IMG/VR virus record: IMGVR_UViG_3300028581_000116
Span: 1-36,254 of that record
Length of the DNA: 36,254 nucleotides
Reading direction: 5' to 3' (one strand)
Origin: a virus
Shown here: positions 1 to 30,069 of the stretch, one piece after another
Numbering within the stretch: the stretch's first letter is position 1
Layout of the letters: every line of letters begins with the position of its first letter
Position numbers and translations under genes: made by a program
Notes under the pieces: generated by a model
What the model saw: only the letters and a program-made list of their open reading frames with translations
What the model was told of the DNA's origin: nothing
The model's database searches: none

Positions 1-192
1 CAGGGAAAGAACTCGGGTGACGACATCTTTGTTATCAGCGGTCAACTTTTCGTTGTCAGCCGTAAGTCCCGCAATCTGTGAATCAAGACCTGCTTTAATG
101 GCTGCAAAAGCTGTTTCAGCTTCTACCTTACCAAGGGCAACGATCTCGGCAAACAGTTCCGGATGTTCGGCTTTCAGCTTTACCAGATCCAT
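1..192 (-). CDS. Nested in-frame scaffold protein start inside protease gene (partial)
   Basis: A second ATG at 190-192 is in frame with the protease (600 nt downstream of its start). It is preceded by a strong AGGAGG at 198-203 with 5-nt spacing, a better site than coding sequence needs by chance. It begins MDLVKLKAEHPELFAEI and continues as a charged helical coiled coil. Many phages (for example lambda C/Nu3) make the scaffold from an internal start in the protease gene. Here that is inferred from the ribosome site and the domain boundary. Runs off the left edge. Confidence 0.6.
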   Translation of the reverse strand, partial: MDLVKLKAEHPELFAEIVALGKVEAETAFAAIKAGLDSQIAGLTADNEKLTADNKDVVTRVLSL

Positions 193-792
193 GTTAACCT
201 CCTTATTTTCTGCAATTTTTTGAGACTGTTCTACTTCCATTACCACGTCTTCGTCTTCGGACATGGCTGCCGATTTGGTGTTCGCATCTGCCCCGAAAGT
301 CACAATTGAACACTCTTTTAAAACTGACTCACGCCAGACTGTACCCGGACCTTTTAACTTAAAACCATTTACTTCTGTTTCTTCATCTTTTGCTATACGC
401 TGAATCTTACTCGGTCGTCCGTAAATAGAAGCTTCATAAGGGTAACCTTCATCGGACAACTTAATAAATTCATTTGCAAAAGGGGTATCTACGAATGTGG
501 AATCTGAACAAACCACTTCGTGTTTATCATTGACCATGAACGCACCGAAACCTATTTTTCTATCTGTATCATGATCATGTAAAATGGGGATTTCTTTTTT
601 GGCGAATTTAATACCAGAAGTGTCAATAACAAGATCATCCCAGAACCAATGATTCTTTATGATCTTTCCTGAATAAGCTACCATACTAAGTTTTCGAGGT
701 TTGCCTTCTTCACAGGATGCTGCTTTTGCGAAAGTTTCTGTATCGGTAAAACGTAATGCGGATTTTGATATTTTCACAGTTTCTTTTTTCAT
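1..792 (-). CDS. Prohead protease with C-terminal scaffold domain (partial, runs off left edge)
   Basis: Open frame from ATG at 790-792 to the window edge (264 codons visible), with an AGGAGGT ribosome site at 799-805. Residues 1-175 read as an HK97/U35-type prohead serine protease: His72 and His74 in LHDHDT, the likely nucleophile Ser122 in YEASIYG, then the typical WRESVLKECSIVTFGADA segment. This family cleaves scaffold and capsid precursors during head maturation. From residue 201 the sequence becomes charged and helical, like a scaffold (coiled-coil pattern with repeated LTADN). Protease assignment rests on motifs and on synteny with portal and terminase. The major capsid gene is expected further left. 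Confidence 0.82.
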   Translation of the reverse strand, partial: MKKETVKISKSALRFTDTETFAKAASCEEGKPRKLSMVAYSGKIIKNHWFWDDLVIDTSGIKFAKKEIPILHDHDTDRKIGFGAFMVNDKHEVVCSDSTFVDTPFANEFIKLSDEGYPYEASIYGRPSKIQRIAKDEETEVNGFKLKGPGTVWRESVLKECSIVTFGADANTKSAAMSEDEDVVMEVEQSQKIAENKEVNMDLVKLKAEHPELFAEIVALGKVEAETAFAAIKAGLDSQIAGLTADNEKLTADNKDVVTRVLSL

Positions 793-818: not shown

Positions 819-847
819 CAAATAACAGAAAAAGTCCTTTCTGTCAA
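819..847 (-). promoter_or_regulatory. Sigma70-like promoter for the protease/capsid genes
   Basis: On the minus strand: TTGACA (842-847), 17-nt spacer, TATTTG (819-824), with TG one base upstream of the -10 (TGTTATTTG). It lies in the 60-nt gap after the glycosyltransferase gene and 27 nt before the protease start. It shares TTCTGTTA with the promoters at 9553 and 12724. Confidence 0.6.
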
Positions 848-852
848 ACAAA

Positions 853-2502
853 TTATTTTAAATAAAAATTTGCATCTTCTTTCAGTATAGATTTCAACAT
901 GTTACTGTTCACATCTACTTTATATTTTCCATTGTCTACATTATGATGGGTTGTCAAACCTGTTCTACCAGACATTCCTTTCATGCCCACTGTTAAATAC
1001 TCTTCGCAACGCACTATTAATTTTTGACCTTTTGTAGGATTTTTATTAACCACATATTCTGCTCCATTTCTTCTATCAGCCCGTCTAATAATTCCTAATG
1101 GAAGGGGTGGGTAAAATATTGTTCCTTTACCAATAACCTGTCCGGAAGTTATTTTTAATGATGTTGTCAATCTTACTGCTCTTTCTTCTTTAAACATATC
1201 TAAAGAATGTTTCCACAATTCAGCATCCACAAGACCTTTCCCACACAATTCAAAATTAGAAGGTGCAGTATTACAAATTTTATGTATTATTGGGATTATT
1301 TCTTTTCGGAAAGCAGTTTGAGCAAGGGCTGGTTGTTTTGCTGTTCCTTTAATCATGTATTTCTGCAAAGAAGGGTAATAGAAAATAAGATTAGCAAAAC
1401 CTACCAAATCTGCTTTATCAAGAAGATTGCTCATGTAATCAATATAGGTCGGATGGTACCAATCATCATCCTCCATAATAATCACTTTTTCACATTTAAC
1501 TTTTTCCAAAGCTAAAGGAAAATTCAAACAAAGGGTATGAAGATAATCACCTTCTTTCGGTTCTCTTCTGTGGTATTCAAAACCAAAAATTGTTTTAATC
1601 GGAATTTTACCATCATCAACAACAATCCACTGTTTTGGTTTAACTGTCTGCTTATTCATCCACATTCTTAACAACTCAAATGATTCAGGTCTGTCACCGG
1701 TGCAAGTAACAACAGCAACTTCTTCTGCCTTTTTTATAACTGGTTGTACAAATGCTCTGTTCATTTTTGATTTAGGTGCTTCTATAAGTAAAGCACTTTT
1801 TAAACTTTGTCCTACATGCTGCATATAAAGTTTAGCATTTTCTAAACCAACCCACTTTATTAAAATGGATAATTTATCATCTACCCGATAATATTTAGAA
1901 TTAGCATCATGACCAGTTCCTATTCCTTTTCTCCCTTTTAATCCTTTAGTAGAACAATGCAACTTCAATTTGTCTTCCAAATCAGTAAAAATAAATTTAT
2001 TGGTATTAATAGTTTCCCAAAAACGAGCATCTAAATAAGGATTACCTGGAAAACACTGTTCAAAAACCGGCAACAATTCTCTTCTAAACCCTGTTTGACA
2101 AAGACTGGCGTGTTTTGTATTAGGTATTCTTCGGTACTGCAAAGTAGGCACAAGATAATATCGAGCATGTCCTTCCCCCACTAAACTATATTTGCTCAAA
2201 TATTGAGACATTGTTCGGACATAATCAGGGCCATACCAATCATCATCTTCAATAATCAGTATTTTGTCTCCCTTTATAAAAGGAAGAGCCTCTTTAAGAT
2301 TAAGAATAAGGGTATGTCCTTCATTTTGTTTTGGTTCTCTTCTTATGTAATCTACTCCTTTTCTTAAATCTTCTGGTAAAGGAATAGCACCATCATCAAC
2401 AACAATCCATTGATCAATCGGTATTGTTTGAGAAGACGTCCATTTTCTACAAAGTTTAAAAGCTTCTTCACGATTTCCTGTTGGGGTGATGGCTGTAATC
2501 AA
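853..2502 (-). CDS. Tandem-duplicated GT-A glycosyltransferase-like protein
   Basis: 549 residues made of two related halves (about 1-260 and 265-549). Each half starts with a GT2-like nucleotide-binding strand (AITPTGNREEAF; AVVTCTGDRPESF), then QWIVVDDG, a RREPK segment and a metal-binding acidic motif (IIEDDDWYGPDY; IMEDDDWYHPTY). Each ends in a shared KGxxGRxG...H...Y.VD block. The second half carries an extra stretch of about 50 residues before that block. GT-A enzymes transfer sugars from nucleotide-sugar donors. The acceptor is unknown. Start overlaps the previous gene by 4 nt (ATGA), so it is translationally coupled. It is the last gene of the sugar cassette. Confidence 0.72.
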   Translation of the reverse strand: MITAITPTGNREEAFKLCRKWTSSQTIPIDQWIVVDDGAIPLPEDLRKGVDYIRREPKQNEGHTLILNLKEALPFIKGDKILIIEDDDWYGPDYVRTMSQYLSKYSLVGEGHARYYLVPTLQYRRIPNTKHASLCQTGFRRELLPVFEQCFPGNPYLDARFWETINTNKFIFTDLEDKLKLHCSTKGLKGRKGIGTGHDANSKYYRVDDKLSILIKWVGLENAKLYMQHVGQSLKSALLIEAPKSKMNRAFVQPVIKKAEEVAVVTCTGDRPESFELLRMWMNKQTVKPKQWIVVDDGKIPIKTIFGFEYHRREPKEGDYLHTLCLNFPLALEKVKCEKVIIMEDDDWYHPTYIDYMSNLLDKADLVGFANLIFYYPSLQKYMIKGTAKQPALAQTAFRKEIIPIIHKICNTAPSNFELCGKGLVDAELWKHSLDMFKEERAVRLTTSLKITSGQVIGKGTIFYPPLPLGIIRRADRRNGAEYVVNKNPTKGQKLIVRCEEYLTVGMKGMSGRTGLTTHHNVDNGKYKVDVNSNMLKSILKEDANFYLK

Positions 2503-3212
2503 ATTTGTCCCTCATATCTTTCCCAAGCACCTTCAATTTCTGAAAGATTTTTAATTCTTCTTGCGGTTCTCGTTCCGGCTATATCGTGTCGAACATATTC
2601 TCTTGGAGCACTTGTCCAAGAATAACCGTTACCTGTTGAATGACCAAGTCCTGGAAATACTTTTATTACTTTATCTGATAATCCTCTTTTATGGATATCC
2701 ATCATTGTTAAAAAACAAGGTGCTCCGTGATGAACGTAAGGATAATATTTCCTATATTCTTTAACTTGCAACAAATGAAAGTATGGGTGAAGATATTTCA
2801 TTCCTGGTTCTTGATGATGGTGAGCATTTACACCATAGTCATAACCATCATAACCAGTTGTTTCACAATACCCGACACCAAATGTATCATCTTCCATCAT
2901 TTCTAACATCCCATGTACCGGGGATTTAAGCATTTCAATATCTGAATCAAATATGAGAGCATATGGAGTTTCAGAATAATGAATGCCTGTGCACATTCCT
3001 CTTCCATGACCTATATTATATTCAACTTGCAAACACATTGTTTTTTCGGAAATTAAAGAAGAAACATACGAATAACAAGGATCGGTATCATTAGAACCAT
3101 CTATGATGATTATTTTCATATTTGGGTGAAACTTTCTAACAGAATCATAAGCTCTTTTCATTAAATCTTTGGTGTTGCTGCAAACTGTAATTCCTGTTAT
3201 AAGTGAATCCAT
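2499..3212 (-). CDS. GT2-family glycosyltransferase
   Basis: 237 residues. It opens with a GT2-like strand (ITGITVCSNTKDLMKRAYDSV), then IIIIDGSNDTD and YNIGHGRGMCTGI, followed by the DxD-type metal motif FDSDIEM near residue 91. A His/Tyr-rich segment and TMMDIHKRGL follow. No membrane segment is evident, so the protein is probably cytoplasmic. It sits 2 nt after the GT-B-like gene and overlaps the tandem glycosyltransferase by 4 nt. Donor and acceptor cannot be read from the sequence. Confidence 0.75.
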   Translation of the reverse strand: MDSLITGITVCSNTKDLMKRAYDSVRKFHPNMKIIIIDGSNDTDPCYSYVSSLISEKTMCLQVEYNIGHGRGMCTGIHYSETPYALIFDSDIEMLKSPVHGMLEMMEDDTFGVGYCETTGYDGYDYGVNAHHHQEPGMKYLHPYFHLLQVKEYRKYYPYVHHGAPCFLTMMDIHKRGLSDKVIKVFPGLGHSTGNGYSWTSAPREYVRHDIAGTRTARRIKNLSEIEGAWERYEGQI

Positions 3213-3214
3213 TA

Positions 3215-4030
3215 TTAACCCTGTGTGACGGATATGAAATTATCCAATTGTTTCTGGAATCTTATTTCTAATTCGTCATACCTTTCTTTAAGTTTTTTAC
3301 TACTGATGGTATTTTTTGCATAATTCATCTCCTCTAATCCATATCCCATGCCTCCTGCTTCCCAAGTATCAAGCAGCAAACAATCTTCTCTTGACCATTG
3401 ATCATTGGGCATAAGAACAACTGGACAACCGCAAAGTCTTGCCACTTCATTCATGGCAGTCACACAATCATAACTAAAAAGAATAGCGGTATGATTTAAA
3501 AGATTTACTAATTCCTCTTGTTTCTCATTCCCTCTAAAAGCAGTTCCTACAGGCAACTGATCCACACCTAGAGCAAATTTTGCTAGTCCTTTGCCTTTAT
3601 AATAAAAAGCTTTTGTTCTTATAAAACCTTTGTCTCTGAACCTTTCAGTATTCAAACAAGGTGCGTAAAGAATCCTATCTTTTGGTAATCCTATCCGACT
3701 ATTAAAAATACCTGAATAAGCAAATAAAATGTCTGATTTCGGAAAAGTAGAAGGTCCTCCGATAACACCAGGTATATTCAAAAGATACCGTACAACTGTG
3801 CTACTATTGAAGGGATTGCCTGCAATGACTTCCGGATAAACAGCTATGCAAGTATTTAGATCCTCTTTGCACTGGTGAATAGTAGGAATATTCATTCCAT
3901 TTTGATCATCAGCCAACACAAAAACATTATTCGGAAATCTTTTCCATAAAGCAAATGCTAATTTATGCAAAACTATGTTACCGGCTGAAGCATCATCCCA
4001 ATTGTAAGTATGTATTAAATAAGATTTCAT
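3215..4030 (-). CDS. GT-B-like glycosyltransferase
   Basis: 271 residues. The segment YPEVIAGNPF...VVRYLLNIPG is typical of a family of bacterial surface-polysaccharide glycosyltransferases. The later FSYDCVTAMNEVARLCGCPVV resembles the GT-B donor-site helix. Length is slightly short for a full GT-B enzyme. Start overlaps the stop of the aminotransferase by 1 nt. With its neighbours it suggests synthesis and transfer of a modified sugar, but the target (virion or host surface) is inference only. Confidence 0.65.
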   Translation of the reverse strand: MKSYLIHTYNWDDASAGNIVLHKLAFALWKRFPNNVFVLADDQNGMNIPTIHQCKEDLNTCIAVYPEVIAGNPFNSSTVVRYLLNIPGVIGGPSTFPKSDILFAYSGIFNSRIGLPKDRILYAPCLNTERFRDKGFIRTKAFYYKGKGLAKFALGVDQLPVGTAFRGNEKQEELVNLLNHTAILFSYDCVTAMNEVARLCGCPVVLMPNDQWSREDCLLLDTWEAGGMGYGLEEMNYAKNTISSKKLKERYDELEIRFQKQLDNFISVTQG

Positions 4031-4665
4031 TATCTCCTCTGGTAAATAGGATAAACAGAAAGGTCAGGATAAGGCCATTCTTTATCTTCATTATGGATAG
4101 GTTGTTCTTGTATGTCGTAAAACTGCCCCATCAAAAGCAACCCTCTTGCAGCAAGTTCGGGCATCATATAAAAATTATACCCAAGCATATCAAAAAAGTC
4201 ATCGTGATAGCTACACTCTCTCCTACCACTAAATCTTGATCTTTTGAACCATAAATAAGCCTCATGATTGTCCGTAAGAATGGCTCCTCCTTTAGATAAT
4301 CGAAAATGCTTATAAGGCCCAGTGAATGACAAGCACATATAGGAATCAGGGATGTACATATTATGAGTGAATCTTAATGCAGAATCCCAAACTCTCGATC
4401 CTTCTAATTGGTAAGCTCCTTTTAAAGTCTTTCCTTCAACAGGTCTAAATTTAACAAAGCCTCCTGCATGTATGATTTCACATGGTACAGAAGGATATGT
4501 TCTTGCCGGAATTGTGATTTCTTTTCCTTTAATATTGTCAAACATCAAAGCGAGAAACAAAGCGTTGCTTTGGTTATCCAATGCAACTACATAAGGAGCA
4601 CCTGTGTACTCTGACAAAGCTTTTTCAAAATCTGCCGTGATTTTATGAGGATTAGCTATGTTCAT
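4030..4665 (-). CDS. DegT/DnrJ/EryC1/StrS-type aminotransferase (short)
   Basis: 211 residues, much shorter than the usual 370 or so for the family. The PLP core is recognisable: VWDSALRF (Asp94, which would pair with the PLP pyridine nitrogen) and LSFTGPYKHFRLSKGGAIL, with Lys119 in the place of the Schiff-base lysine and a conserved GG after it. The family transaminates nucleotide-linked keto-sugars. The C-terminal small domain appears reduced, so activity is uncertain. It overlaps the acyltransferase gene by 14 nt. An aminotransferase beside a hexapeptide acyltransferase is the classic pair for N-acylated amino sugars. Confidence 0.72.
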   Translation of the reverse strand: MNIANPHKITADFEKALSEYTGAPYVVALDNQSNALFLALMFDNIKGKEITIPARTYPSVPCEIIHAGGFVKFRPVEGKTLKGAYQLEGSRVWDSALRFTHNMYIPDSYMCLSFTGPYKHFRLSKGGAILTDNHEAYLWFKRSRFSGRRECSYHDDFFDMLGYNFYMMPELAARGLLLMGQFYDIQEQPIHNEDKEWPYPDLSVYPIYQRR

Positions 4666-5200
4666 TAGCTGACCATTCTTTCAAAAACTGATCTGCCAAT
4701 TCCAACATTTTTCTATCTCTTCCACCTATTCTACGAGCAGGAGCACCAACATAAATCATCCATGCAGCACAATCTTTAGTTACCAATGTGTGAGCACCAA
4801 AAATAGAACCTTCTTTCAAAGTTACACCAGGAAGAACAGTGCATTTAGAACCAAACGTCACATGATCTTCCAATATGATTGGTTTACCTCTTTTGTACTC
4901 AGGTTTGTATTTCATGGGAACTTGAGGACCAATCAAAGAACGACCACTGAAATCATCAGATTCAGACAATAGGATGGTGTAAGCACCGAATTGACAGAAA
5001 TCACCGATTTCTATTCCTGATCCTGCAAACATTGAAACATAACAAGCAATGTGGATGTGGCTACCAATCTTTAATCCACTTCCTCCAGACAATACGGAAA
5101 AATCGTCTATACGAACATTGTCGCCAATTTCGATCTTCTCGGGACTGTAAAACTGTGCCCGAGGACTGATGTTGCAATTCTTTCCTATTTTTTTAAACAT
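4652..5200 (-). CDS. Hexapeptide-repeat (left-handed beta-helix) sugar acyltransferase
   Basis: 182 residues from the ATG at 5198-5200, chosen because AAGGAG lies 6 nt upstream. An upstream in-frame start at 5245 would overlap the portal gene. Repeated [LIV]-G-x4 hexapeptides run from about residue 20 to 155 (IEIGDNVRIDD, LKIGSHIHIAC, IEIGDFCQFGA, VTFGSKCTVLPGVTL, SIFGAHTLVTKD), ending in the common WMIYVGAPARRIG. These trimeric enzymes acylate sugars using acetyl-CoA. It is the first gene of the cassette, 19 nt after portal. Confidence 0.85.
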   Translation of the reverse strand: MFKKIGKNCNISPRAQFYSPEKIEIGDNVRIDDFSVLSGGSGLKIGSHIHIACYVSMFAGSGIEIGDFCQFGAYTILLSESDDFSGRSLIGPQVPMKYKPEYKRGKPIILEDHVTFGSKCTVLPGVTLKEGSIFGAHTLVTKDCAAWMIYVGAPARRIGGRDRKMLELADQFLKEWSANEHS

Positions 5201-5219: not shown

Positions 5220-6908
5220 TTATTTGGCAATAGGTTTTTTAACAATTACTTTCTTTACCGGTACAACAGGTTTTACAGGTGCTACTGGTTCAGCAGGTTT
5301 ACCTGTTTTAGGATCAATAACTGGTTTCTTAGGTTTCAGACCTTGTTGATCCATCTGTTCTCCACCTTCATCAATAGCTGGAGTCAATTCAGGGTATTTC
5401 TCTTCCTCAGTAGCCTGGGCAAGTCTGAGTCTGCGGTAATTACCAAATCCGAGTTTCTTTGCAATCTCTTCATTGGGAATACCAAGATTATCATAAACAG
5501 AACCGTGTTTAACACCCAAGAATGCTCTTGCTCTTGTTTCGGCATCATCCACCTGAGAAACTGGGTATGTAATATCAATCAAAAACTCTGGTGCTCTTTC
5601 AACATCTTTAAAAATGGGCTTCTTTGCTTTGTAATCTACAGCTTCTTTTGTAGTGAATAAACGCGGGAAATTGCTCACTGCCGCTTTTAAATAGAAGACT
5701 GCTCTATAGAAGTCATACTTTAGAAAACGATCAAAAAAGGCGATTTCATCCGAGATACGATCCGACATCGGACCACGTGAAGCTTTAACGGAAGCAAAGG
5801 TTCCTTTACTCTGACCAGTAGAGACATCTTCAGGCTCATTAAGACCTCCGGTCACCATATGCAAGATGTCTGTGTCTGAATCACTGATTGAAGGAAGTTT
5901 TGGAGAGTGGGCTTCTATGGTCATACCAGGAGGAAGAACAAGTGTGCTGCCCGGTGTTTTCTTAGCCATGATGCCCGTCTTACGTCTTTCTTCATCGGTA
6001 AGACTAAGCCAAGTACGAAAAGCTTTAGGATCTTCAATAGAAACAACCCAAACATAAGCGCCAGATGATTTCTTATGGTCTATTTCATACTTCTTTAGAT
6101 TCTCGTAATGGTTGAGCCATTCAATAACTGTACGAAGGTAAGAGATATTACGATGGGTGATGAAAGACCTATCCCAAGAAACAATGAATCTCTGAAAACC
6201 ACCAATACCGTTATACATATTTTTAGGACTTTTCGATGATTTTGTTTGTTCCTCATTGAAATTATTTGTCTTTTTAGCAACCTTCAGCAATTCAGGATAA
6301 TAAGCCATAAAGATTGACGGCACCATCACCACTCCTTTGTCAAACAATCCTTCTGTGTATTTAGGAGTGACATAGTAAAACAAAGGCATTGTTGCTTTTT
6401 CTGGATGATAAAGAACTCCATCTTCTCCACCACCTGTGATGTTTGCAGGATCAATAAAGTCAACTTCGATGAAACCATCTGGATGGGCTGTAAGAAGAAG
6501 AAAAAGTTCTCCTTCAATAACGGCTCTGCCTACAAACTTGGGCCAATACGAATAAAGACGATTTCGAGGATCAAACTCTGTGTCCACTACAGCATCATTA
6601 ATTTCTGGAATATCTGAGGATATTTCAAATCCAAAACCAGTTAATCTTCCTACTTGACCTCTGACAGCAGTTCCTACAAACGGACTTTTATTGAATTTTG
6701 ACCAACAAATCTTTTGAAGTCTTGCCCTATCTTCTACACCATCAACAAAACCAGTAACTGTGGAAAAACCATCTTCATCTTTTCCGCCTTCTTCACCAGT
6801 TGCGTCATATTGCCAGGGCATGGCCAACCTTAATGAAGATAATTCTTCATCCGTAAGTTTTTCTAACGCAGAAGTCATAATAGACATCTGATTTGCATTA
6901 TTTTTCAT
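5220..6908 (-). CDS. Portal protein
   Basis: 562 residues. It directly follows the large terminase and precedes protease in the direction of transcription. The sequence shows portal-like features: an early segment FVGTAVRGQVGRLTGFGFEI, then EVDFIDPANITGG, a central helical region, and VDDAETRARAFLGV. The tail is rich in Pro, Lys and Val (last 35 residues or so), probably disordered. The portal forms the dodecameric ring at the capsid vertex through which DNA is packaged. A GGAGGT ribosome site precedes ATG 6906-6908. The call depends on gene order and length. Confidence 0.72.
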   Translation of the reverse strand: MKNNANQMSIMTSALEKLTDEELSSLRLAMPWQYDATGEEGGKDEDGFSTVTGFVDGVEDRARLQKICWSKFNKSPFVGTAVRGQVGRLTGFGFEISSDIPEINDAVVDTEFDPRNRLYSYWPKFVGRAVIEGELFLLLTAHPDGFIEVDFIDPANITGGGEDGVLYHPEKATMPLFYYVTPKYTEGLFDKGVVMVPSIFMAYYPELLKVAKKTNNFNEEQTKSSKSPKNMYNGIGGFQRFIVSWDRSFITHRNISYLRTVIEWLNHYENLKKYEIDHKKSSGAYVWVVSIEDPKAFRTWLSLTDEERRKTGIMAKKTPGSTLVLPPGMTIEAHSPKLPSISDSDTDILHMVTGGLNEPEDVSTGQSKGTFASVKASRGPMSDRISDEIAFFDRFLKYDFYRAVFYLKAAVSNFPRLFTTKEAVDYKAKKPIFKDVERAPEFLIDITYPVSQVDDAETRARAFLGVKHGSVYDNLGIPNEEIAKKLGFGNYRRLRLAQATEEEKYPELTPAIDEGGEQMDQQGLKPKKPVIDPKTGKPAEPVAPVKPVVPVKKVIVKKPIAK

Positions 6909-7001
6909 GGAAATACCTCCAAAATCATCAAAAACTTCTATTTTTCTTCAATTTTCTGTCTTTATATCAAAAATTTCCCCAAAATGCAAGAAATATTTTA
7001 T

Positions 7002-8969
7002 TTACCAAGCTCCTAAAGTAACCACTTCCTTGATCATGGTTCCGAAATATCTATCGGCTCTTCTTTCTTTAAAATCATTGGCTGATATTTCCCTACCACC
7101 ATAAATACACCAAGCAATGCTAAACATACAGTCATCCTGGATTCCGTTCTTTTCCATTTTCTCAGGAGAACCAAACCAATGTTTAGCAGGATCGTGGTAA
7201 AAGACTCTGGCTTCTTCTCTGAACAAATCTGTTTCTTTAGCCCCCCACACACCAATCGGAGGGCATTTAATTCGAGCACCAGTAGCTGTCAAATAAAGTT
7301 CACTAAAAGCGGCTTTCTGTTTATCATACGTAGGAAAGATTGCTTCAAACGGAATACCTTGTTCTTCACACCAAGGTACTAAATCCCAAATACCCCACCG
7401 CTCACCACAAAGCTTATCAAGACCGCCAAATTCACCATGAACAGCCATAACCAAATCTTTAATATCCGCCAGACTATGAGTTTCAACATTTACTATGTGG
7501 AGTATTATATAAACGTAATTTGGAACAGCCCCTGAATCAATTAAAAATGGTCGAGAACCACTGCCAGGAAGACCTTTAGCAATACAGACAAAAACTGTTT
7601 TTGCTCCATGATTTGTGATCTTCATCGGATCAGCTCTATCAAGACCAGCAAGAATAGCCCATTTTGTATCAAGAAGAGAACCTATCTTTTCCAAGTCATC
7701 TAAAGTAGCCATAATCGGAAAACCACCTTCATCTCTTAAACTGATATAGTTTTCCATTGCCATCGGTAGCATCCTCTTTTTAATATCTCGAATATGGATA
7801 AGAGCATGGTCATCCGCTTGTCTTCTGGTTTCCTCAAAAGACTTAATGGCGTCTTCCAATTTAATTTTCTCTTCGCAGGCTTTCATAAGAGAAGTGCTGT
7901 TACCAACAGCTCCATCAATTCCAAGATAATTCATAGCTTCAATAGTCTCTTCGGTAAAAACACGCAAAGACCCGGAACTCCATGTGTTCAAGAAATATCT
8001 TTCGTAATCACCAAGAGGAAACTTTGATCTATATGCGTCAAGTTGTGCTTGTGACATATTGGGGTTCCAGTAATCGGCAGCAGAACCTTCTTTACTAAAC
8101 CGATAACTAAAGAACAAAGATGGATCTTTCCGATGAATGTAAGCATCAAACAGATTGTAAAGGATATGAGTCTTTGCAGAAACAGTGGAGTCAATGACAC
8201 CAAAAGCATTTGGTATGTTACGAATAGAACCATCAAGCTGGACAAAGAACTTTGGATTCTTCATGTCAAAGATTTCAGAGAATGTATATCCGGTAATATT
8301 AGAAACAATTCCCGAGAAAGAAGAAATAGCCCGAATAACAGAAACATCATTACCTTGGTCATCAGTTAAACGAATCTTCTTTTCAAGAATATTCCGTTTA
8401 CCAATGGCACTAAGTAATGGCGGCGAATTAATAATGATGTCTTTTATGATGTCAAAATGAACAAAGGTGATTTGTTCTTTGGAGTTTGCTCCGAGGACTA
8501 TCTGCTGCTTTGACCAATTAAAGAACTTCCATAGCTGAATAAGACAAGCAAGAAGACTTTTGCCTTCTCCACGCATCCAACAGAGAACAATCAAACGGTG
8601 GATAAATTCCCCGTTAACCATCCGCAAAGCAGACCGACAAATCTCTTTTTGTTCATTCCAAATATTGTCATAAGATTTTCCGGTCTTTGGATTAATATCC
8701 TTTGGTAATTTTCCGATCGGACACCACTGGGCCATAACAGCTCCGACAGGATAAATCGGAATCGAAACCTTATCCTCACACCATTTAATAAATCCTTCCG
8801 GACCATCCTGGTAATTCAAAGGTACATAAGGAACATAAGGATCAAGGGTGTCGATGTCCACGGTGTAAATCTTATCCTCGGAAAACACATTCCGATTAGT
8901 GGCTTTAATCAATCGACGTGTGTTGGCTCTAGCAATATTGGATAACCTTTTCCGGATAATCTTACTCAT
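7002..8969 (-). CDS. Terminase large subunit (packaging ATPase and nuclease)
   Basis: 655 residues. The ATPase domain has a Walker A-like loop WMRGEGKS (residues 131-138). A terminase-style Walker B region follows, ITGYTFSEIFDM (about 226-236), then LDGSIRN...VIDST. The C-terminal RuvC-like nuclease begins near ILAGLDRADPMKI with the first catalytic Asp. It pumps DNA through the portal and cuts concatemers. Start overlaps the upstream gene by 4 nt (ATGA). The long N-terminal extension rich in basic residues may bind the small subunit (inference). Confidence 0.87.
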   Translation of the reverse strand: MSKIIRKRLSNIARANTRRLIKATNRNVFSEDKIYTVDIDTLDPYVPYVPLNYQDGPEGFIKWCEDKVSIPIYPVGAVMAQWCPIGKLPKDINPKTGKSYDNIWNEQKEICRSALRMVNGEFIHRLIVLCWMRGEGKSLLACLIQLWKFFNWSKQQIVLGANSKEQITFVHFDIIKDIIINSPPLLSAIGKRNILEKKIRLTDDQGNDVSVIRAISSFSGIVSNITGYTFSEIFDMKNPKFFVQLDGSIRNIPNAFGVIDSTVSAKTHILYNLFDAYIHRKDPSLFFSYRFSKEGSAADYWNPNMSQAQLDAYRSKFPLGDYERYFLNTWSSGSLRVFTEETIEAMNYLGIDGAVGNSTSLMKACEEKIKLEDAIKSFEETRRQADDHALIHIRDIKKRMLPMAMENYISLRDEGGFPIMATLDDLEKIGSLLDTKWAILAGLDRADPMKITNHGAKTVFVCIAKGLPGSGSRPFLIDSGAVPNYVYIILHIVNVETHSLADIKDLVMAVHGEFGGLDKLCGERWGIWDLVPWCEEQGIPFEAIFPTYDKQKAAFSELYLTATGARIKCPPIGVWGAKETDLFREEARVFYHDPAKHWFGSPEKMEKNGIQDDCMFSIAWCIYGGREISANDFKERRADRYFGTMIKEVVTLGAW

Positions 8970-9529
8970 CGAATTATCCCTTTCATGGAAACATTATTAT
9001 CGGTTATGGTTTTATAATAATTCGGATCACCTTTTTCATTATCCCCAGAACCGGAAATAACACTAGAACCACTACCAGAACCAGGATTAGGTTTCCCGTG
9101 AAAAGCAAAGGTTAAATCCAAATCTTTCCACAAACCATTAATACAAGCAAGAGTAGAACGGATTTCCCGGTATATCGGATGCACCACTAAAGCACCTTTT
9201 TCGGTTACAATCATCGGTGATTCCAAAGCCAACTCTTCCATCTGCATCTTCATCAACTGCACATATAAGGGAACAATCTGCATCCCTATCTTAAAGAGCA
9301 TTGCTTCATCAAGGTACTTATATGTGCCGAGGATGGAATTATACAAGGTTTCAAGATACTTTACCTGGACTGCACACTTACCACGCTTCAGGTAATTACA
9401 CATATTAACAACGGGACAGTTATGATCCGAACAATCACGGATACCATCCCAGGCAAATAATGCCACATCTTTGCGGACAAAACCTTTCTCTAACGCTAAG
9501 TCTCCGATCTTTAATTTCAGCGGACTCAT
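8966..9529 (-). CDS. Probable terminase small subunit (P27-like), with a cysteine cluster
   Basis: 187 residues, first gene of the late operon and coupled to the large terminase. The stretch MIVTEKGALVVHPIYREIRSTL followed by LWKDLDL matches the pattern of P27-family small terminases (V..KG...HP..........L..L.L). The N-terminal part has Cys33, Cys38, Cys44 and Cys52 plus His36, a possible zinc site not typical of the family. A Gly-Ser-rich linker (about 148-162) separates the C-terminal tail. An AGGAGGTGC ribosome site lies just upstream of ATG 9527-9529. Confidence 0.65.
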   Translation of the reverse strand: MSPLKLKIGDLALEKGFVRKDVALFAWDGIRDCSDHNCPVVNMCNYLKRGKCAVQVKYLETLYNSILGTYKYLDEAMLFKIGMQIVPLYVQLMKMQMEELALESPMIVTEKGALVVHPIYREIRSTLACINGLWKDLDLTFAFHGKPNPGSGSGSSVISGSGDNEKGDPNYYKTITDNNVSMKGIIR

Positions 9530-9552: not shown

Positions 9553-9581
9553 AAAGTAACAGAACTTACATGGTTTGTCAA
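9553..9581 (-). promoter_or_regulatory. Promoter of the late (terminase-portal) operon
   Basis: Minus strand: TTGACA (9576-9581), 17-nt spacer, TACTTT (9553-9558), with TGT directly before the -10. It sits 24 nt from the small terminase start. The TTCTGTTAC block has the same sequence and spacing as the promoters at 819-847 and 12724-12752. Confidence 0.65.
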
Positions 9582-10151: not shown

Positions 10152-10325
10152 CTATCGTAGATAACAAGCTATATGTTTTCGCAATATTACTACTCTATTA
10201 TAAAAAGTAGTAATACTATAATCATCATGTAAATGATCGTTAATAGCTTTGACATCTTCACTACTTACGTCATTTAAATCAGATAATAACGCTTTTAATT
10301 CTTTTACAAGCAGATGTTTTTTCAT
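10152..10325 (-). CDS. Small hypothetical protein
   Basis: 57 residues from ATG 10323-10325 to TAG at 10152-10154, starting MKKHLLVKELKALLSDLND and ending RKHIACYLR. Acidic and helical in the first half, basic at the end. No family recognised. It follows the larger gene by 12 nt and ends 6 nt before the terminator, which supports a real two-gene operon. No strong ribosome site is visible. Confidence 0.45.
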   Translation of the reverse strand: MKKHLLVKELKALLSDLNDVSSEDVKAINDHLHDDYSITTFYNRVVILRKHIACYLR

Positions 10326-10337
10326 ATCTTGTCATCA

Positions 10338-10742
10338 CTATGCGATACGTTTACTCATTTTCTTAGCTGTATCACTCGTCGCATGTCTCTCGATGCGTTT
10401 AGCGACTTCAAAATGCGTCATACGTCTATTTGTTGACTTCTCGTAGAAGCGTACATCATACTTGCAGACAAGCGATAACATCTTCGCAGCAACGAGCTTA
10501 TCGTGACAAGCTAGCTTCTCTAGTTCGCTTTGTGTCAATACTTGCGCTTTAAGCAATGCAGTTATAAACGCAGTTGCTGCGTACGCTTGCGTACAAGCGC
10601 TATAATCGTATGTTTCGCGCGTCATTGCGTCAATAGAGACAAGCGACTTTTCAGACTTTTTAGCGACTTTGTAAAGATCACAAACAGACTTATTTTCATT
10701 GCTGATTTTTCTGATAATGATCTTCGTTTTATTCGTTTTCAT
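10338..10742 (-). CDS. Hypothetical protein of small minus operon
   Basis: 134 residues from the ATG at 10740-10742 (MKTNKTKIIIRKIS), preferred over an in-frame ATG at 10778 that lies inside a leader hairpin. Basic, largely helical, with no recognisable domain. Bases such as GCG, TCG and CGC are more frequent than in the surrounding AT-rich DNA, giving it a different look from the phage genes around it. It is transcribed from the promoter at 10927-10954 through a structured leader. Position opposite the early genes is typical of a regulator or moron, but that is inference. Confidence 0.6.
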   Translation of the reverse strand: MKTNKTKIIIRKISNENKSVCDLYKVAKKSEKSLVSIDAMTRETYDYSACTQAYAATAFITALLKAQVLTQSELEKLACHDKLVAAKMLSLVCKYDVRFYEKSTNRRMTHFEVAKRIERHATSDTAKKMSKRIA

Positions 10743-10768
10743 TTCATATCTCTTTTCTTTATTCGTTA

Positions 10769-10825
10769 ATTGTCTCAATAACTTGCAATATTGCAGTTAA
10801 GCAATTTCAGTTATTGCAAACAATT
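10769..10825 (-). promoter_or_regulatory. Leader hairpin upstream of the small minus operon
   Basis: Nested perfect inverted repeats: AATTGT/ACAATT outside and CAATAACT/AGTTATTG inside (10776-10783 with 10809-10816). The loop contains the palindrome TGCAATATTGCA. It ends about 27 nt before the chosen start of the gene at 10742. It may act as an RNA leader or as a repressor site. Confidence 0.5.
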
Positions 10826-10926
10826 AGATTTACTTATGTCAAAGAACAAATGTCTTTATTTATCAGCTTCTACAGCTTATTTAAAGCGTCTAATAAATAA
10901 AGAGCACGTGCAACAAGCACGATTGC

Positions 10927-10954
10927 AGTATATAGACTTTCAATTTTTTGTCAA
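10927..10954 (-). promoter_or_regulatory. Promoter of small minus operon
   Basis: Minus strand: TTGACA (10949-10954), 16-nt spacer, TATACT (10927-10932). About 185 nt of leader follows before the gene. An 11-bp inverted repeat (TCTTTATTTAT ... ATAAATAAAGA) within that leader could be an attenuator. Confidence 0.6.
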
Positions 10955-11196
10955 TTATTCTTTTATTTCAGCAGACTGAGACAATCTCTACCCATCCATT
11001 TCCCTCGACTCTAAAATTAATCCTTCTTATATGCACACATGTACGGACATATCCGTTTTAGCAAATTAACCCTCATTCCGTTTCAAGTAGATAATCCGCA
11101 TTGAAAAAGGAATAAACAACCCTTCCCTTGGATAGGTGCTTATATAACTACCCGTTCCATGGATTATAGTCACTATTAAATGATTAAGGTTGTATG

Positions 11197-11222
11197 ACCG
11201 ATTACCATAAATAGAATAAAGG
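11197..11222. repeat. 26-bp direct repeat, copy 1
   Basis: Starts ACCGATTACCATAAATAG. Nearly identical (one difference near the end) to 11230-11255, with a 33-bp period, about three helical turns. Confidence 0.8.
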
Positions 11223-11229
11223 ACAAACA

Positions 11230-11255
11230 ACCGATTACCATAAATAGAATAAGGG
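11230..11255. repeat. 26-bp direct repeat, copy 2
   Basis: Second copy of the repeat at 11197-11222. Two iteron-like copies on the same face of the helix. Confidence 0.8.
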
Positions 11256-11859
11256 TAGTTATTCCTTATACCATAATAAACAAGTTATCTATAACAATAA
11301 AGGATGAAAGGTTTATTAACCATGGATTTTTTACTTATATATATAACTTTTTAAAACCTTTAAATGGTAAAAGGATAAACCTTCTTTTGGATTCCTTTTC
11401 TTGGTAATTAAATAAACATTCCATGGAATAAGCAATTTAATATAAAACCTAATATTTAATTTTTTAGAAGGGAACTCTGCTCTTTATCAAAAAGGGCCTG
11501 AAATGTTTAATTTCCGTAAAAATTCCCGGTAAATTCTTAAATTTAATTTGATGGAATAGCAGGGTCATTTAATAAAAATTAACAAAAAATCCATAAACCT
11601 TTATGAAAAAACCTTTTTTATGAAAAAACCTTTTATCAATTTTGACCAAATAACCATGGATTGGTAGATCCATGTCCATAATAAACAGTTTTATTTTCAT
11701 AAACAAGAGATTGCCCAATCCAAGTTTTAATGAAAATAAGCTGAAAGGCAAGGGAAGGTTAGCAATCCTTCCCTTGGAAAGATTAACCATTTAACAAAAG
11801 GTTATACGGGTGAAAGGGAAACCTTTAATCGGAAATCCTATGAAAGGAGTGCCCATTCC

Positions 11860-12723: not shown

Positions 12724-12752
12724 TTGACACCCCAGCATGATTCTGTTATCGT
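12724..12752 (+). promoter_or_regulatory. Promoter of the structured RNA and early operon
   Basis: TTGACA (12724-12729), 17-nt spacer, TATCGT (12747-12752), with TGT before the -10. The same TTCTGTTAY block at the same spacing occurs in the two late promoters on the other strand. It is the only good plus-strand promoter seen before the early genes. Confidence 0.6.
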
Positions 12753-15798: not shown

Positions 15799-15815
15799 GT
15801 CAGAAATTCCTTAAT

Positions 15816-26137: not shown

Positions 26138-27517
26138 ATGAAACCTGAATACTGGATGCGATTTTTAGATCCGATCGAATCTATAATGTCCCCTGCTCTG
26201 TCTGAACTTGTCAGAAATTCCTTATCTTTTCCGACAGTCTGGTATAGACAGGGGGCATTTAAGAAAACCAGAATGGAGGGTGTTAAATCTACGATCATTA
26301 GCAGAACTGCTAAAGGTCACATTTTCTTTACGGGTTTGATTCCTCGGGTTCTTCAAGAAGCTGCTCGGCAGAAAGTTTCTGTGGATTACACACCTCCTGA
26401 GAAATTCTTAATTCCCAAAAAAGAAGTAATTCTTCCGAAAGGATTAGAGCTTCGGCCATTTCAGCAGGATTTGATTAACAAGGTGCTTATCGCAGAAAGA
26501 GGAATCCTTAAAGCTCCAACAGGAACTGGAAAAACCTTCTTAGGACTTTCTCTTATCGCTTCTATAGAAGATGTTGACCAAGTTTTGTGGTTGTGTCATA
26601 CGAAAGATTTACTTTATCAAACGACTAATGAGGCTGAGAAATTCTTTGGTAAGAAAGCTGTTGGTATAATCGGGGATGGTAGAAAAGAAGATAGCAGATT
26701 CTTGACTGTGGCTACAAGACAATCATTCAAAGATTTAGCTGATGATCTTGGAACCTCCTATGATATTGTAATAACTGATGAAAGCCACCACCTCAGCACT
26801 TTAAGGGGAGAATATGCCGAGATACTTCACAAAGTCTTTGCTCCGATAAGAATTGGTCTAACAGCTACTTTGCCCACCGATGCCGAGGCTAAGTTAGCTA
26901 TGGAGGCACTCATAGGCCCTCTTATCGGAGAATTTTCAATCAATGAAGGCATGGAACAGGGATTCATGGCAGAAATCAAGATCAAGATCATGAAAGTCCC
27001 GAAACTTCAGCGCATCCGAGATTTGAGAAAATATCCTGATGTTTATGAACAAGGGATTGTCCGAAGACTTGATCGGAATAAAATGATTGTGGATTTGATA
27101 AAAGAATACACCAAGAAAAATATGGGTTGCTTAGTTATGGTAAATCACATTGCTCATGGTGAACTTCTTATGTCTATGTGTCGTCATTGTGGTCTTGATA
27201 CTGTCTTTGTGCAAGGAGCAACAGAATCAGAAAACCGACTTCTTGCTAAACAAGCTCTTAATGAAGGACATATTCGAAGTGTCATTGCCACAGCTACATG
27301 GCGGGAGGGCATATCAATACCTGAATTAAATGTAGTAATCAATGCTGCCGGAGGCAAGTCAGAAATTATGACTCTTCAAAGTATTGGTCGAGGTACCAGA
27401 ACCACTCTCACAAAGAAAGAAGTTATTATCCATGATTTTTTCGATCAATCACATCCGTTCTTGTTGGATCACTTTGGAGAAAGGTTTCTAATTTATTTAG
27501 ATAACGGATGGATATGA
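26138..27517 (+). CDS. SF2 DNA helicase (UvsW/XPB-like)
   Basis: 459 residues. Walker A APTGTGKT (126-133), DEAD-box-like DESHH (214-218), SAT-like LTATL (241-245) and motif VI QSIGRGTR (414-421) are intact. ELRPFQQDLI before Walker A acts as the adenine-binding region. About 105 residues precede the core, as in T4 UvsW. Such helicases unwind or remodel branched DNA in phage recombination and replication. Weak ribosome site (AGAGG). A broken copy of its C-terminus lies directly downstream. Confidence 0.88.
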   Translation: MKPEYWMRFLDPIESIMSPALSELVRNSLSFPTVWYRQGAFKKTRMEGVKSTIISRTAKGHIFFTGLIPRVLQEAARQKVSVDYTPPEKFLIPKKEVILPKGLELRPFQQDLINKVLIAERGILKAPTGTGKTFLGLSLIASIEDVDQVLWLCHTKDLLYQTTNEAEKFFGKKAVGIIGDGRKEDSRFLTVATRQSFKDLADDLGTSYDIVITDESHHLSTLRGEYAEILHKVFAPIRIGLTATLPTDAEAKLAMEALIGPLIGEFSINEGMEQGFMAEIKIKIMKVPKLQRIRDLRKYPDVYEQGIVRRLDRNKMIVDLIKEYTKKNMGCLVMVNHIAHGELLMSMCRHCGLDTVFVQGATESENRLLAKQALNEGHIRSVIATATWREGISIPELNVVINAAGGKSEIMTLQSIGRGTRTTLTKKEVIIHDFFDQSHPFLLDHFGERFLIYLDNGWI

Positions 27518-27537: not shown

Positions 27538-27758
27538 ATGCACAATTTTCAACATAAAAGAAGGCAAAACATGGAAACATGTACCATGCTGAAACACACT
27601 TCAGAAATTTCAACTCTTCAGAGTATTGGTCGAGGTCTTAGAAAAACTACTACAAAAAAGGAACTAATTATGGTGGACTTCTTTGACCAGTCTCATCCTT
27701 TTTACTTGATCATTGGGGTGAGAGATTTTGCCTGCACCTCGACAATAATTGGATATGA
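27538..27758 (+). pseudogene. Frameshifted partial duplicate of the SF2 helicase C-terminus
   Basis: Begins with unrelated residues. From about 27600 it repeats the helicase end: SEISTLQSIGRGLRKTTTKKELI...DFFDQSHPF against SEIMTLQSIGRGTRTTLTKKEVI...DFFDQSHPF. Near the T run at 27699-27703 one base is missing. After restoring the frame, LDHWGERF...LDNNWI matches the parent to its last residue, ending at TGA 27756-27758. In the current frame the product would run to 27780 with an unrelated tail. Protein similarity is higher than DNA similarity, so the duplication is not recent or came from a related phage. Confidence 0.75.
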
Positions 27759-27767
27759 AAGGAAAAT

Positions 27768-27910
27768 ATGGCACTCGTAACATATGATCAGGTGGTAGGG
27801 CAAAAGACGCAGAGATCAGTGCCCTCAAGAAGAGGGTGCGAGAACTGGAAGAAGAACTGGCACAAATGAAAGTAGATCATTTAGATATAAAGGAGATACC
27901 ATGTCCATAA
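27768..27910 (+). pseudogene. Broken small coiled-coil gene
   Basis: ATG 27768 after AAAGGAAAAT gives MALVTYDQVVGQK, but the coding-like sequence continues in the -1 frame from about 27800 (AKDAEISALKKRVRELEEEL). That is a clear coiled coil, ending at TAA 27908-27910, inside the ligase gene. One base seems lost near 27795-27805. A programmed shift is possible, but no standard slippery heptamer is seen. Confidence 0.5.
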
Positions 27911-29890: not shown

Positions 29891-30061
29891 ATGAGACCTA
29901 AATTAGATGATGCTAAAGAAGCTATAAACATTTCAATCACAAAGGGCTGGAAAGAACAGTTACAAAGACTTGCCCGAATTCAGTCCGTTGAAGAAAACAA
30001 AACTTTAACCTATCTTGACTTAATCCGAAGAGTAGTAAAAGAAAAATACGATTTGAAATGA
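29891..30061 (+). CDS. Small ribbon-helix-helix-like regulator
   Basis: 56 residues, AAAGGAGAAAATC upstream. AINISITKGWKEQLQRLARIQSVEENKTLTYLDLIRRVVKEKY fits the strand-helix-helix pattern of MetJ/Arc-type DNA-binding dimers. Being first after a promoter and overlapping the initiator gene, it may control initiator synthesis (inference). Confidence 0.55.
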   Translation: MRPKLDDAKEAINISITKGWKEQLQRLARIQSVEENKTLTYLDLIRRVVKEKYDLK

Positions 30062-30069
30062 GGTACAGC

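Follow-up and report, generated by a model that had tools for sequence, protein, structure and literature searches.

The sugar-modification genes lying between the portal and protease genes of this phage belong to a hypervariable locus at a fixed site, which is the most telling feature of the region. Our preferred explanation, to which we give a little better than an even chance, is that enzymes of the locus make an N-acylated 4-amino-4,6-dideoxy sugar in the cytosol and that this sugar is then attached to a protein of the virion, which would create swappable particle “serotypes”.

Within the window, by which we mean the whole stretch of 36,254 nucleotides analysed and whose virus is contig L002 among its relatives, five co-directional, closely spaced genes occupy positions 853-5200 of the minus strand between the portal and the head maturation protease; all five open reading frames lie where the original prediction had placed them. 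The phage lineage is uncultured. Upstream of the insertion site lies a portal gene of the lambda family (5220-6908; PF05136, E 1.3e-4), followed by genes for an AntD-like left-handed beta-helix N-acyltransferase of 182 aa (4652-5200; Hexapep, E 1.1e-13), a miniature DegT/DnrJ/EryC1 sugar aminotransferase of 211 aa (4030-4665; PF01041, E 1.8e-13), a protein of 271 aa with an unassigned fold, listed as an ORF (3215-4030), a GT2 glycosyltransferase of 237 aa (2499-3212; PF00535, E 5.7e-11) and a tandem GT2 (853-2502; PF00535, E 2.8e-8), all on the minus strand. The protease gene (1-792, minus strand; phrog_3244, E 2e-19) is incomplete at the window end and complete in contig L002 (374 aa, E 2.5e-19), where the MCP gene occupies 10211-11440 and is preceded by a gene for a 232-aa protein. 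From the portal to the tandem GT2, the junctions are a 19-nt gap, overlaps of 14 and 1 nt, a 2-nt gap and a 4-nt overlap, and this spacing is operon-like. For the acyltransferase gene, the ATG at position 5200, which is accompanied by AAGGAG, serves as the start, and there is no need to invoke the longer ORF that reaches a TTG at 5245; the tandem GT2 gene has a TTG start within the TTGA overlap. GC3 is moderately lower in the three distal cassette genes than in the head genes (0.21-0.25 against 0.28-0.39). Across the ORFs of the sugar-cassette clade, no 19-residue KD segment exceeds 1.6, and all the cassette proteins look soluble.

The product of the acyltransferase and DegT pair is a well-supported prediction. 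Residues 2-176 of the 182 in the acyltransferase align to the 3vbi-3vbp structures (best 3vbk, E 7.7e-42), which we take to be AntD, the acyltransferase of dTDP-4-amino-4,6-dideoxyglucose in the Bacillus anthrose pathway. The aminotransferase scores 50.9 bits against the 19.8-bit cut-off of PF01041, and its AF2 model (pLDDT 84.7) has GDP-perosamine synthase 3bn1 as best fold match (Z 18.0); Lys119 aligns with the catalytic lysine of NtdA and of GDP-perosamine synthase and, with Asp94 and Ser113, is invariant across 24 sequences. The claim that the enzyme set fits an N-acylated amino sugar is thus borne out by the AntD-like match (8e-42) together with the perosamine-synthase fold. A DegT-type aminotransferase had been announced, and the family assignment holds, but not a normal-size enzyme: standard DegT enzymes have about 360-370 aa with a C-terminal small domain, whereas the 190 aligned residues here span positions 27-330 of the 365 in 3bn1 and skip large pieces of it, so that the protein appears to be a miniature relative rather than a standard family member, devoid of the C-terminal domain that usually aids substrate binding. 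Its 69-80% identity across relatives points to purifying selection, and this compact enzyme would be a worthwhile structure target. No dehydratase was detected in the cassette, nor any GDP_Man_Dehyd-type match in the relatives searched; because the cassette has none, the substrate dTDP-4-keto-6-deoxyglucose would presumably come from the RmlA/RmlB pathway of the host.

Three glycosyltransferase (GT) genes had been proposed, of which the GT2 and the tandem GT2 are upheld by Pfam and the 3215-4030 gene lacks a supporting match. The tandem protein contains two GT2 domains of the EDDDWY type (residues 2-227 and 260-548), the second of which is a constant element, present in all ten cassettes with a visible protease end at 42-76% identity. 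The profile of the EDDDWY family has as its nearest solved structure the PglI-type 9jma (E 1e-4); PglI acts on a lipid-linked glycan. The idea that tandem genes differ in how many copies of a single domain they have was considered and rejected: L110, L036, L032 and L115 share domain 2 only and differ in the N-terminal parts preceding it. Relatives carry orthologues of the 2499-3212 GT2 within the same cassette (58-72% identity). As hhalign found no relation between this GT2 and the EDDDWY family, the two GT genes did not arise by recent duplication. For the 3215-4030 protein, Pfam, NCBIfam and PDB gave no match and PHROGs none of significance, PDB sequence searches returned noise, and the AF2 model from three sequences is poor (pLDDT 31). 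It accompanies the DegT and the acyltransferase in L033 and L016, and a weak hhalign profile match to a GT-B protein (31%, 37 columns) makes it possibly, and unprovenly, a GT-B.

Comparison with relatives reveals how the site is used. A portal search returned 140 viral relatives, with 67 loci scorable at the portal-protease junction: 50 are empty, 14 hold a sugar locus of varying content and 3 an unrelated GT/methyltransferase island. This comparison supports the suspected interruption of a normal portal-protease order, and the state of the junction changes only twice on the portal tree, against 15.7 times in shuffles. The flanks are conserved (TerL, portal and protease at 57-81% identity, capsid at 85-95%) while the middle sugar genes differ, with methyltransferases including FkbM and CmcI types, radical SAM and B12-radical SAM proteins, WbqC, a NeuD/PglD-like acyltransferase and other GT2s among those exchanged. 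The window's virus and L110, whose portals are 81% identical, come from the same metagenome. In seven relatives a second-site GT cassette lies farther down the same operon and shares a radical SAM family with the first site (45-50% identity), and no GT2 match lies outside the cassette in G001 and G002, two relatives of 91 kb. The finding of different blocks at the same spot in relatives suggests a strain-specific sugar coating of the phages' own particles.

The insertion site also coincides with a conserved promoter-like element. Directly before the protease (819-847, minus strand), the sequence reads TTGACA-N17-TATTTG, the second hexamer being preceded by TG. Both where the cassette is present and where it is absent, TTGAC-N16..18-TA recurs at this position, in 24 of 50 relatives overall compared with 1.6 in shuffles; the promoter-like motif is therefore read as predating the cassette. 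A second candidate, TTGCAT-N17-TATAAA, precedes the portal (6961-6989, minus strand), where the stricter TTGAC motif is found in 31 of 61 relatives (2.9 in shuffles). In a standard sigma-70 scan the protease promoter did not stand out (25 sites against 27.6 in shuffles), a standard terminator scan was likewise at chance level, and only the comparative motif test is informative; despite the former result, the conserved motif bears out the prediction that the protease has its own promoter after the cassette. The cassette would plausibly form the tail of the portal unit and be expressed together with the late genes.

The EDDDWY glycosyltransferases extend this association beyond the immediate relatives. 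They lie within 5 kb downstream of a portal or MCP gene, on the same strand, in 22 of 25 records from other phages against 4.7 expected, although these records represent few lineages and are not independent. Among 50,697 phage records, the portal has no match and the EDDDWY GT a single weak, unannotated one; a GTDB scan with the GT alignment returned four bacterial contigs. Close homologues of the mini-DegT occur in large marine phages, within GT islands away from head genes. An EDDDWY GT beside portal or capsid genes may serve as a genomic signature for glycosylated phages, of which cultured collections are nearly devoid.

The sugar, its source, the acceptor, the order of transfer and the selective advantage are what we infer in the following scheme. 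The mini-DegT would aminate C4 of a host-made nucleotide-4-keto-6-deoxyhexose, and the AntD-like enzyme would N-acylate the resulting amine to give an N-acyl viosamine-like sugar, which soluble glycosyltransferases, working in the cytoplasm, could then add, along with host sugars, to a protein of the virion. Every complete cassette has the C-terminal EDDDWY domain, which would make a common, probably protein-proximal linkage, and the exchanged middle genes would supply outer sugars specific to the strain. Placed after the portal gene and before the conserved protease promoter, the cassette could swap cargo without touching capsid expression. An excess of MCP conservation in cassette carriers, expected if glycosylation constrained the MCP, was not seen relative to cassette-free pairs.

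The main rival, which we judge unlikely, is that the genes act late on the host surface, changing LPS, capsule or S-layer sugars to block superinfection or the re-adsorption of progeny. O-antigen loci resemble the cassette in combining DegT, acyltransferase and GT, and they can include WbqC, NeuD/PglD-like and perosamine-type enzymes; the lipid-linked substrate of PglI would suit such a role, and the mini-DegT homologues of marine phages sit apart from head genes. Phage GT islands are, moreover, usually read as O-antigen modification, as are the hypervariable host-recognition islands with LPS genes of pelagimyophages and cyanomyophages, interpreted as O-chain modification (PMC7029224); these share with our locus a hypervariable, GT-rich region in environmental phages, but they adjoin tail-fibre genes, whereas the cassette lies inside the head operon. 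No sugar-clade cassette encodes a membrane protein, flippase, polymerase or phosphoglycosyltransferase, in contrast to gtr-type seroconversion clusters, with their GtrA flippase and membrane-embedded glucosyltransferase, and to O-antigen/capsule pathways, whose initiating phosphoglycosyltransferase, Wzx/Wzy and ABC exporter are absent among the annotated cassette ORFs. Genes for host-surface modification would also be more useful early than in a head operon, yet the cassette is always within the virion operon, and unrelated phages have their EDDDWY GTs concentrated near head genes.

It is improbable, in our estimation, that the junction is simply a gap between transcription units that tolerates inserts, the sugar genes being passing host-derived cargo with no common virion function. 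A junction before a promoter is a natural safe site, two unrelated GT islands have used it, and the lower GC3 of the distal genes would fit; but the identifiable cargo of the sugar clade is nearly all sugar-related, and the one GT domain kept in all ten complete cassettes and the purifying selection on the DegT speak against mere passage. Least probable is that the GTs add sugars to modified bases in the DNA of the phage and thereby let it evade restriction, as do reported phage GT clusters that put diverse glycans on DNA (Pyle 2024, as cited in PMC12619734). No protein of the thymidylate synthase/hydroxymethylase superfamily was found in ten contigs, which include the two 91-kb relatives but may be incomplete, in a search whose positive control was detected; TET/JBP gave no match in these contigs either, but nor did its positive control give a signal. 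The cassette is tied to head rather than replication genes. The position of the cassette, the solubility of its proteins and the recurrence beside head genes favour the virion as the putative target of the glycan.

Virion glycosylation by viral enzymes has precedents. Mycobacteriophages (Che8 and relatives) use their own GTs to place glycans on capsid and tail-tube subunits (Freeman 2023, as cited in PMC11256854 and PMC12619734). These too are tailed phages with their own glycosyltransferases, though the glycans of ours are putative; the F1 mycobacteriophage Maravista carries its GT genes near the genome 3' end rather than between portal and protease, and here a sugar-nucleotide pair joins the GTs and is exchanged with them as a block among relatives. 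In the chlorovirus PBCV-1, soluble multi-domain GTs and methyltransferases encoded by the virus act in the cytoplasm to glycosylate the capsid, and the glycans vary between virus strains (PMC7019647). It offers a likeness in its soluble viral GTs (here two confirmed GT2 genes, one multi-domain) and differs in being a large DNA virus of eukaryotes. Mimivirus L136 and L142, an aminotransferase and an acetyltransferase, make UDP-Vio4NAc for virion fibrils (PMC9614988); they match the predicted pairing of a type I fold aminotransferase with an N-acyltransferase to yield an N-acylated 4-amino-4,6-dideoxy sugar, but mimivirus has its own 4,6-dehydratase and a full-size 352-aa aminotransferase, where our phage encodes a 211-aa enzyme and lacks a dehydratase. 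The phage acyltransferase aligns over nearly its full length to Bacillus AntD, which differs in belonging to a bacterial glycoprotein pathway.

Glycans on phage virions have been described for only a handful of isolates and seem to be curiosities. It is conceivable, at somewhat less than an even chance, that the present locus is a true virion “serotype locus” in tailed phages: a recombining, O-antigen-like block, fixed in its position within the head operon, in which swappable sugar genes accompany a single protein-proximal GT domain that stays constant. Such a locus would put different glycans on the nearly identical capsids of close relatives in one habitat. If a fixed locus tied to the head operon does exchange between close relatives, particle glycans would be under diversifying selection in the environment, and candidate selection pressures, among them sticking to host surfaces, binding to mucus or biofilm, grazers and immune systems, would become testable.

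In this 36,254-base viral contig the head genes are read from the minus strand: a small terminase-like ORF (8966-9529), the large terminase (7002-8969), the portal (5220-6908), a five-gene block (853-5200) and the head maturation protease (1-792), which is cut by the contig end. Contig L002, from the same virus, reaches farther and holds the complete protease, then a 232-aa protein and a major capsid protein of the lambda E type. Taken together, the two contigs give the order known from lambda (large terminase, portal, protease, small protein, E-type capsid), with the 232-aa protein standing where lambda has gpD; unlike lambda, the portal-protease junction holds the extra block. Its five ORFs are tightly spaced, with overlaps or gaps of 2-19 nt, and ribosome-binding-like sequences precede several of the starts.

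The first gene of the block (4652-5200) encodes a left-handed beta-helix acyltransferase whose top solved relatives, 3vbi-3vbp, match over nearly the full length (E 8e-42). These entries carry the label galactoside acetyltransferase, and we take them to be AntD of Bacillus cereus, an enzyme of the anthrose pathway whose substrate for acylation is dTDP-4-amino-4,6-dideoxyglucose. The second gene (4030-4665) encodes a DegT-family aminotransferase of only 211 aa. Its AlphaFold2 model, built from 24 relatives, is confident (pLDDT 84.7) and has GDP-perosamine synthase and other nucleotide-sugar aminotransferases as top fold matches (Z 18 to 15). Lys119, invariant across relatives, aligns with the catalytic lysine. 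Identity is 66-80% across 24 viral sequences, very different phages among them, and this miniature form is a separate family. Homologues 60-78% identical are carried by phages as large as 253 kb and by Flavobacterium phage immuto (contigs L003-L026, e.g. L012, L009, L016), in islands made up of large glycosyltransferases with several domains and of methyltransferases. The original prediction also counted three glycosyltransferase genes; two hold up, a GT2 (2499-3212) and a tandem protein (853-2502) with two GT2 domains of one family bearing the motif (I/M)EDDDWY, while the protein at 3215-4030 matched nothing in Pfam, NCBIfam or PDB and its glycosyltransferase label is a guess, made slightly likelier by a relative placed after DegT and acyltransferase genes in the unrelated phage L016.

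We fetched 80 portal relatives and mapped their gene order. On the 78-row portal tree, 14 junctions carry sugar genes, three another glycosyltransferase/methyltransferase island and 50 neither, with 11 cut off; portal and protease are directly adjacent in 39 of the 50 and separated by short gaps in the others, one gap reaching 3.7 kb with no recognised sugar genes in it. These states require two changes on the tree against 15.7 in shuffles, and the sugar-cassette carriers form one side of a branch, so a single origin is likely but, given the low support (46), unproven. Flanking genes in this clade are 57-81% (terminase, portal, protease) or 85-95% (capsid) identical to those of our virus, and the middle cassette genes vary from virus to virus, exchanging methyltransferases, FkbM and CmcI-type methyltransferases, radical SAM and B12-radical SAM proteins, a WbqC protein, NeuD/PglD-type acyltransferases and other GT2s. 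One relative, L033, retains homologues of all five genes (55-77% identity), which makes the set a recurring module. The miniature DegT is present in nine of the 14 cassettes and the C-terminal EDDDWY domain in all ten whose protease end lies on the contig, its N-terminal partner being exchanged; in one relative, L107, the GT2 gene rather than the protease directly follows this domain. The predicted cassette is real, and more interesting than first stated, since what looked like a lone oddity proves, once relatives are compared, to be a locus with swappable content.

A separate protease promoter after the cassette had also been proposed. A standard promoter scan did no better than chance, and it is a comparative motif test that supports the proposal: TTGAC-N16..18-TA precedes the protease gene in 24 of 50 relatives, against 1.6 (at most 5) in shuffles, and the portal gene in 31 of 61, against 2.9; before cassette or capsid genes it does not exceed chance. 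The predicted copy in our virus is TTGACAGAAAGGACTTTTTCTGTTATTTG (847-819, minus strand). Because the pre-protease motif occurs with or without a cassette, this predicted promoter is older than the insertion. By the distribution of the motif, the cassette apparently closes the portal unit and lies immediately ahead of the capsid unit. One promoter class is suggested by three TTGACA promoter-like sites that all have TTCTGTTA at their second hexamer: before the protease (819-847, minus), before the first terminase gene (9553-9581, minus) and where the rightward early region begins (12724-12752, plus).

That early region carries eight type-P5 twister self-cleaving ribozymes (RF02684, 45-62 bits) on the plus strand between 15815 and 23667 (at 15815, 17781, 19007, 19687, 20644, 21871, 22841 and 23613), five of which lie 24-36 nt ahead of the following start codon. 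Relatives have 13 copies (contigs L179/L180; G006, whose portal is 81% identical) or seven (contig L181; the 91-kb G001), and 40 kb of the cassette-free G004 has none; the array looks conserved and may cleave polycistronic early mRNA between genes. A ResIII/DEAD helicase (26138-27517) is followed by a short ORF (27538-27780), apparently a partial duplication of the helicase gene, repeating its C-terminal motif LQSIGRGLRKT...VDFFDQSHPF. A 23-bp perfect tandem repeat (1.9 copies, 30477-30520) lies within a 465-aa ORF (30058-31455), and the DnaB-like replicative helicase (31560-34295) is split by an intein that bears a homing-endonuclease domain of the LAGLIDADG type.

Seven relatives lacking the portal-protease cassette (L053, L059, L061, L071, L088, L098, L099) have a glycosyltransferase cassette farther downstream in the same operon, past the 150-aa and 210-aa genes that come after the capsid gene. 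In L053 (17030-21426) and L098 (17033-21363) it comprises a GT-B protein (with two recognised GT parts in L053), a GT2, an unknown protein and a radical SAM protein. Two of the seven carry a radical SAM protein 45-50% identical to the one in the portal-protease cassettes of L029, L031 and L037, implying that a similar gene set entered one operon at two places. The EDDDWY glycosyltransferase is also found in dozens of viral contigs beyond this lineage. An HK97-type portal or capsid gene could be recognised in 25 records; in 22 of these the glycosyltransferase follows it on the same strand at a distance of no more than 5 kb, against 4.7 expected at random placement, a count that overstates independence because many records are near relatives. 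Examples are L160 (terminase-portal-protease-capsid-x-x-GT-x-head closure) and L154 (capsid-portal-x-GT-tail terminator-tape measure). This placement by head genes in other phages is the strongest indirect tie to the particle.

Evident at the locus are an aminotransferase/acyltransferase pair, predicted soluble glycosyltransferases, variable tailoring genes, a constant glycosyltransferase domain and a head-operon site. We suggest that host dTDP-4-keto-6-deoxyglucose would be aminated and then N-acylated to an N-acyl-viosamine-like sugar, that the constant EDDDWY domain would form a common linkage near the acceptor, and that the exchanged glycosyltransferases and methyltransferases would complete a strain-specific glycan, with a virion protein as the probable acceptor. 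The keto-sugar should be host-supplied, since no GDP_Man_Dehyd-family dehydratase was found in this virus or nine relatives. Modification of the host surface is the standard interpretation of phage glycosyltransferase islands (PMC7029224), and in large marine phages the miniature DegT likewise belongs to such islands, which there are not near head genes; it is the main rival reading here, less probable than a virion target. The sugar-clade cassettes contain no ORF that looks membrane-bound and no recognised flippase, polymerase or phosphoglycosyltransferase, which speaks against the making of a cell-surface product on a lipid carrier. The strong conservation of the DegT and the constant domain makes neutral cargo less likely. 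For hypermodification of DNA the needed base-modifying enzymes were not found in 10 contigs, though the control of the TET search gave no signal.

The proposed glycosylation of a virion protein has relatives elsewhere. Chloroviruses use multi-domain glycosyltransferase/methyltransferase proteins of their own to add glycans to the capsid protein in the cytoplasm, and glycan variants are seen (PMC7019647); mimivirus uses an aminotransferase and an acetyltransferase to make UDP-Vio4NAc for its fibrils (PMC9614988); and mycobacteriophages bear glycans on capsid and tail-tube subunits, according to the passages on Freeman 2023 in PMC12619734 and PMC11256854. These are precedents for each step. Phage-encoded glycosylation of virions or surfaces is of a known kind; what is new is the organisation of this locus, whose position would let the cargo change without harming capsid expression.
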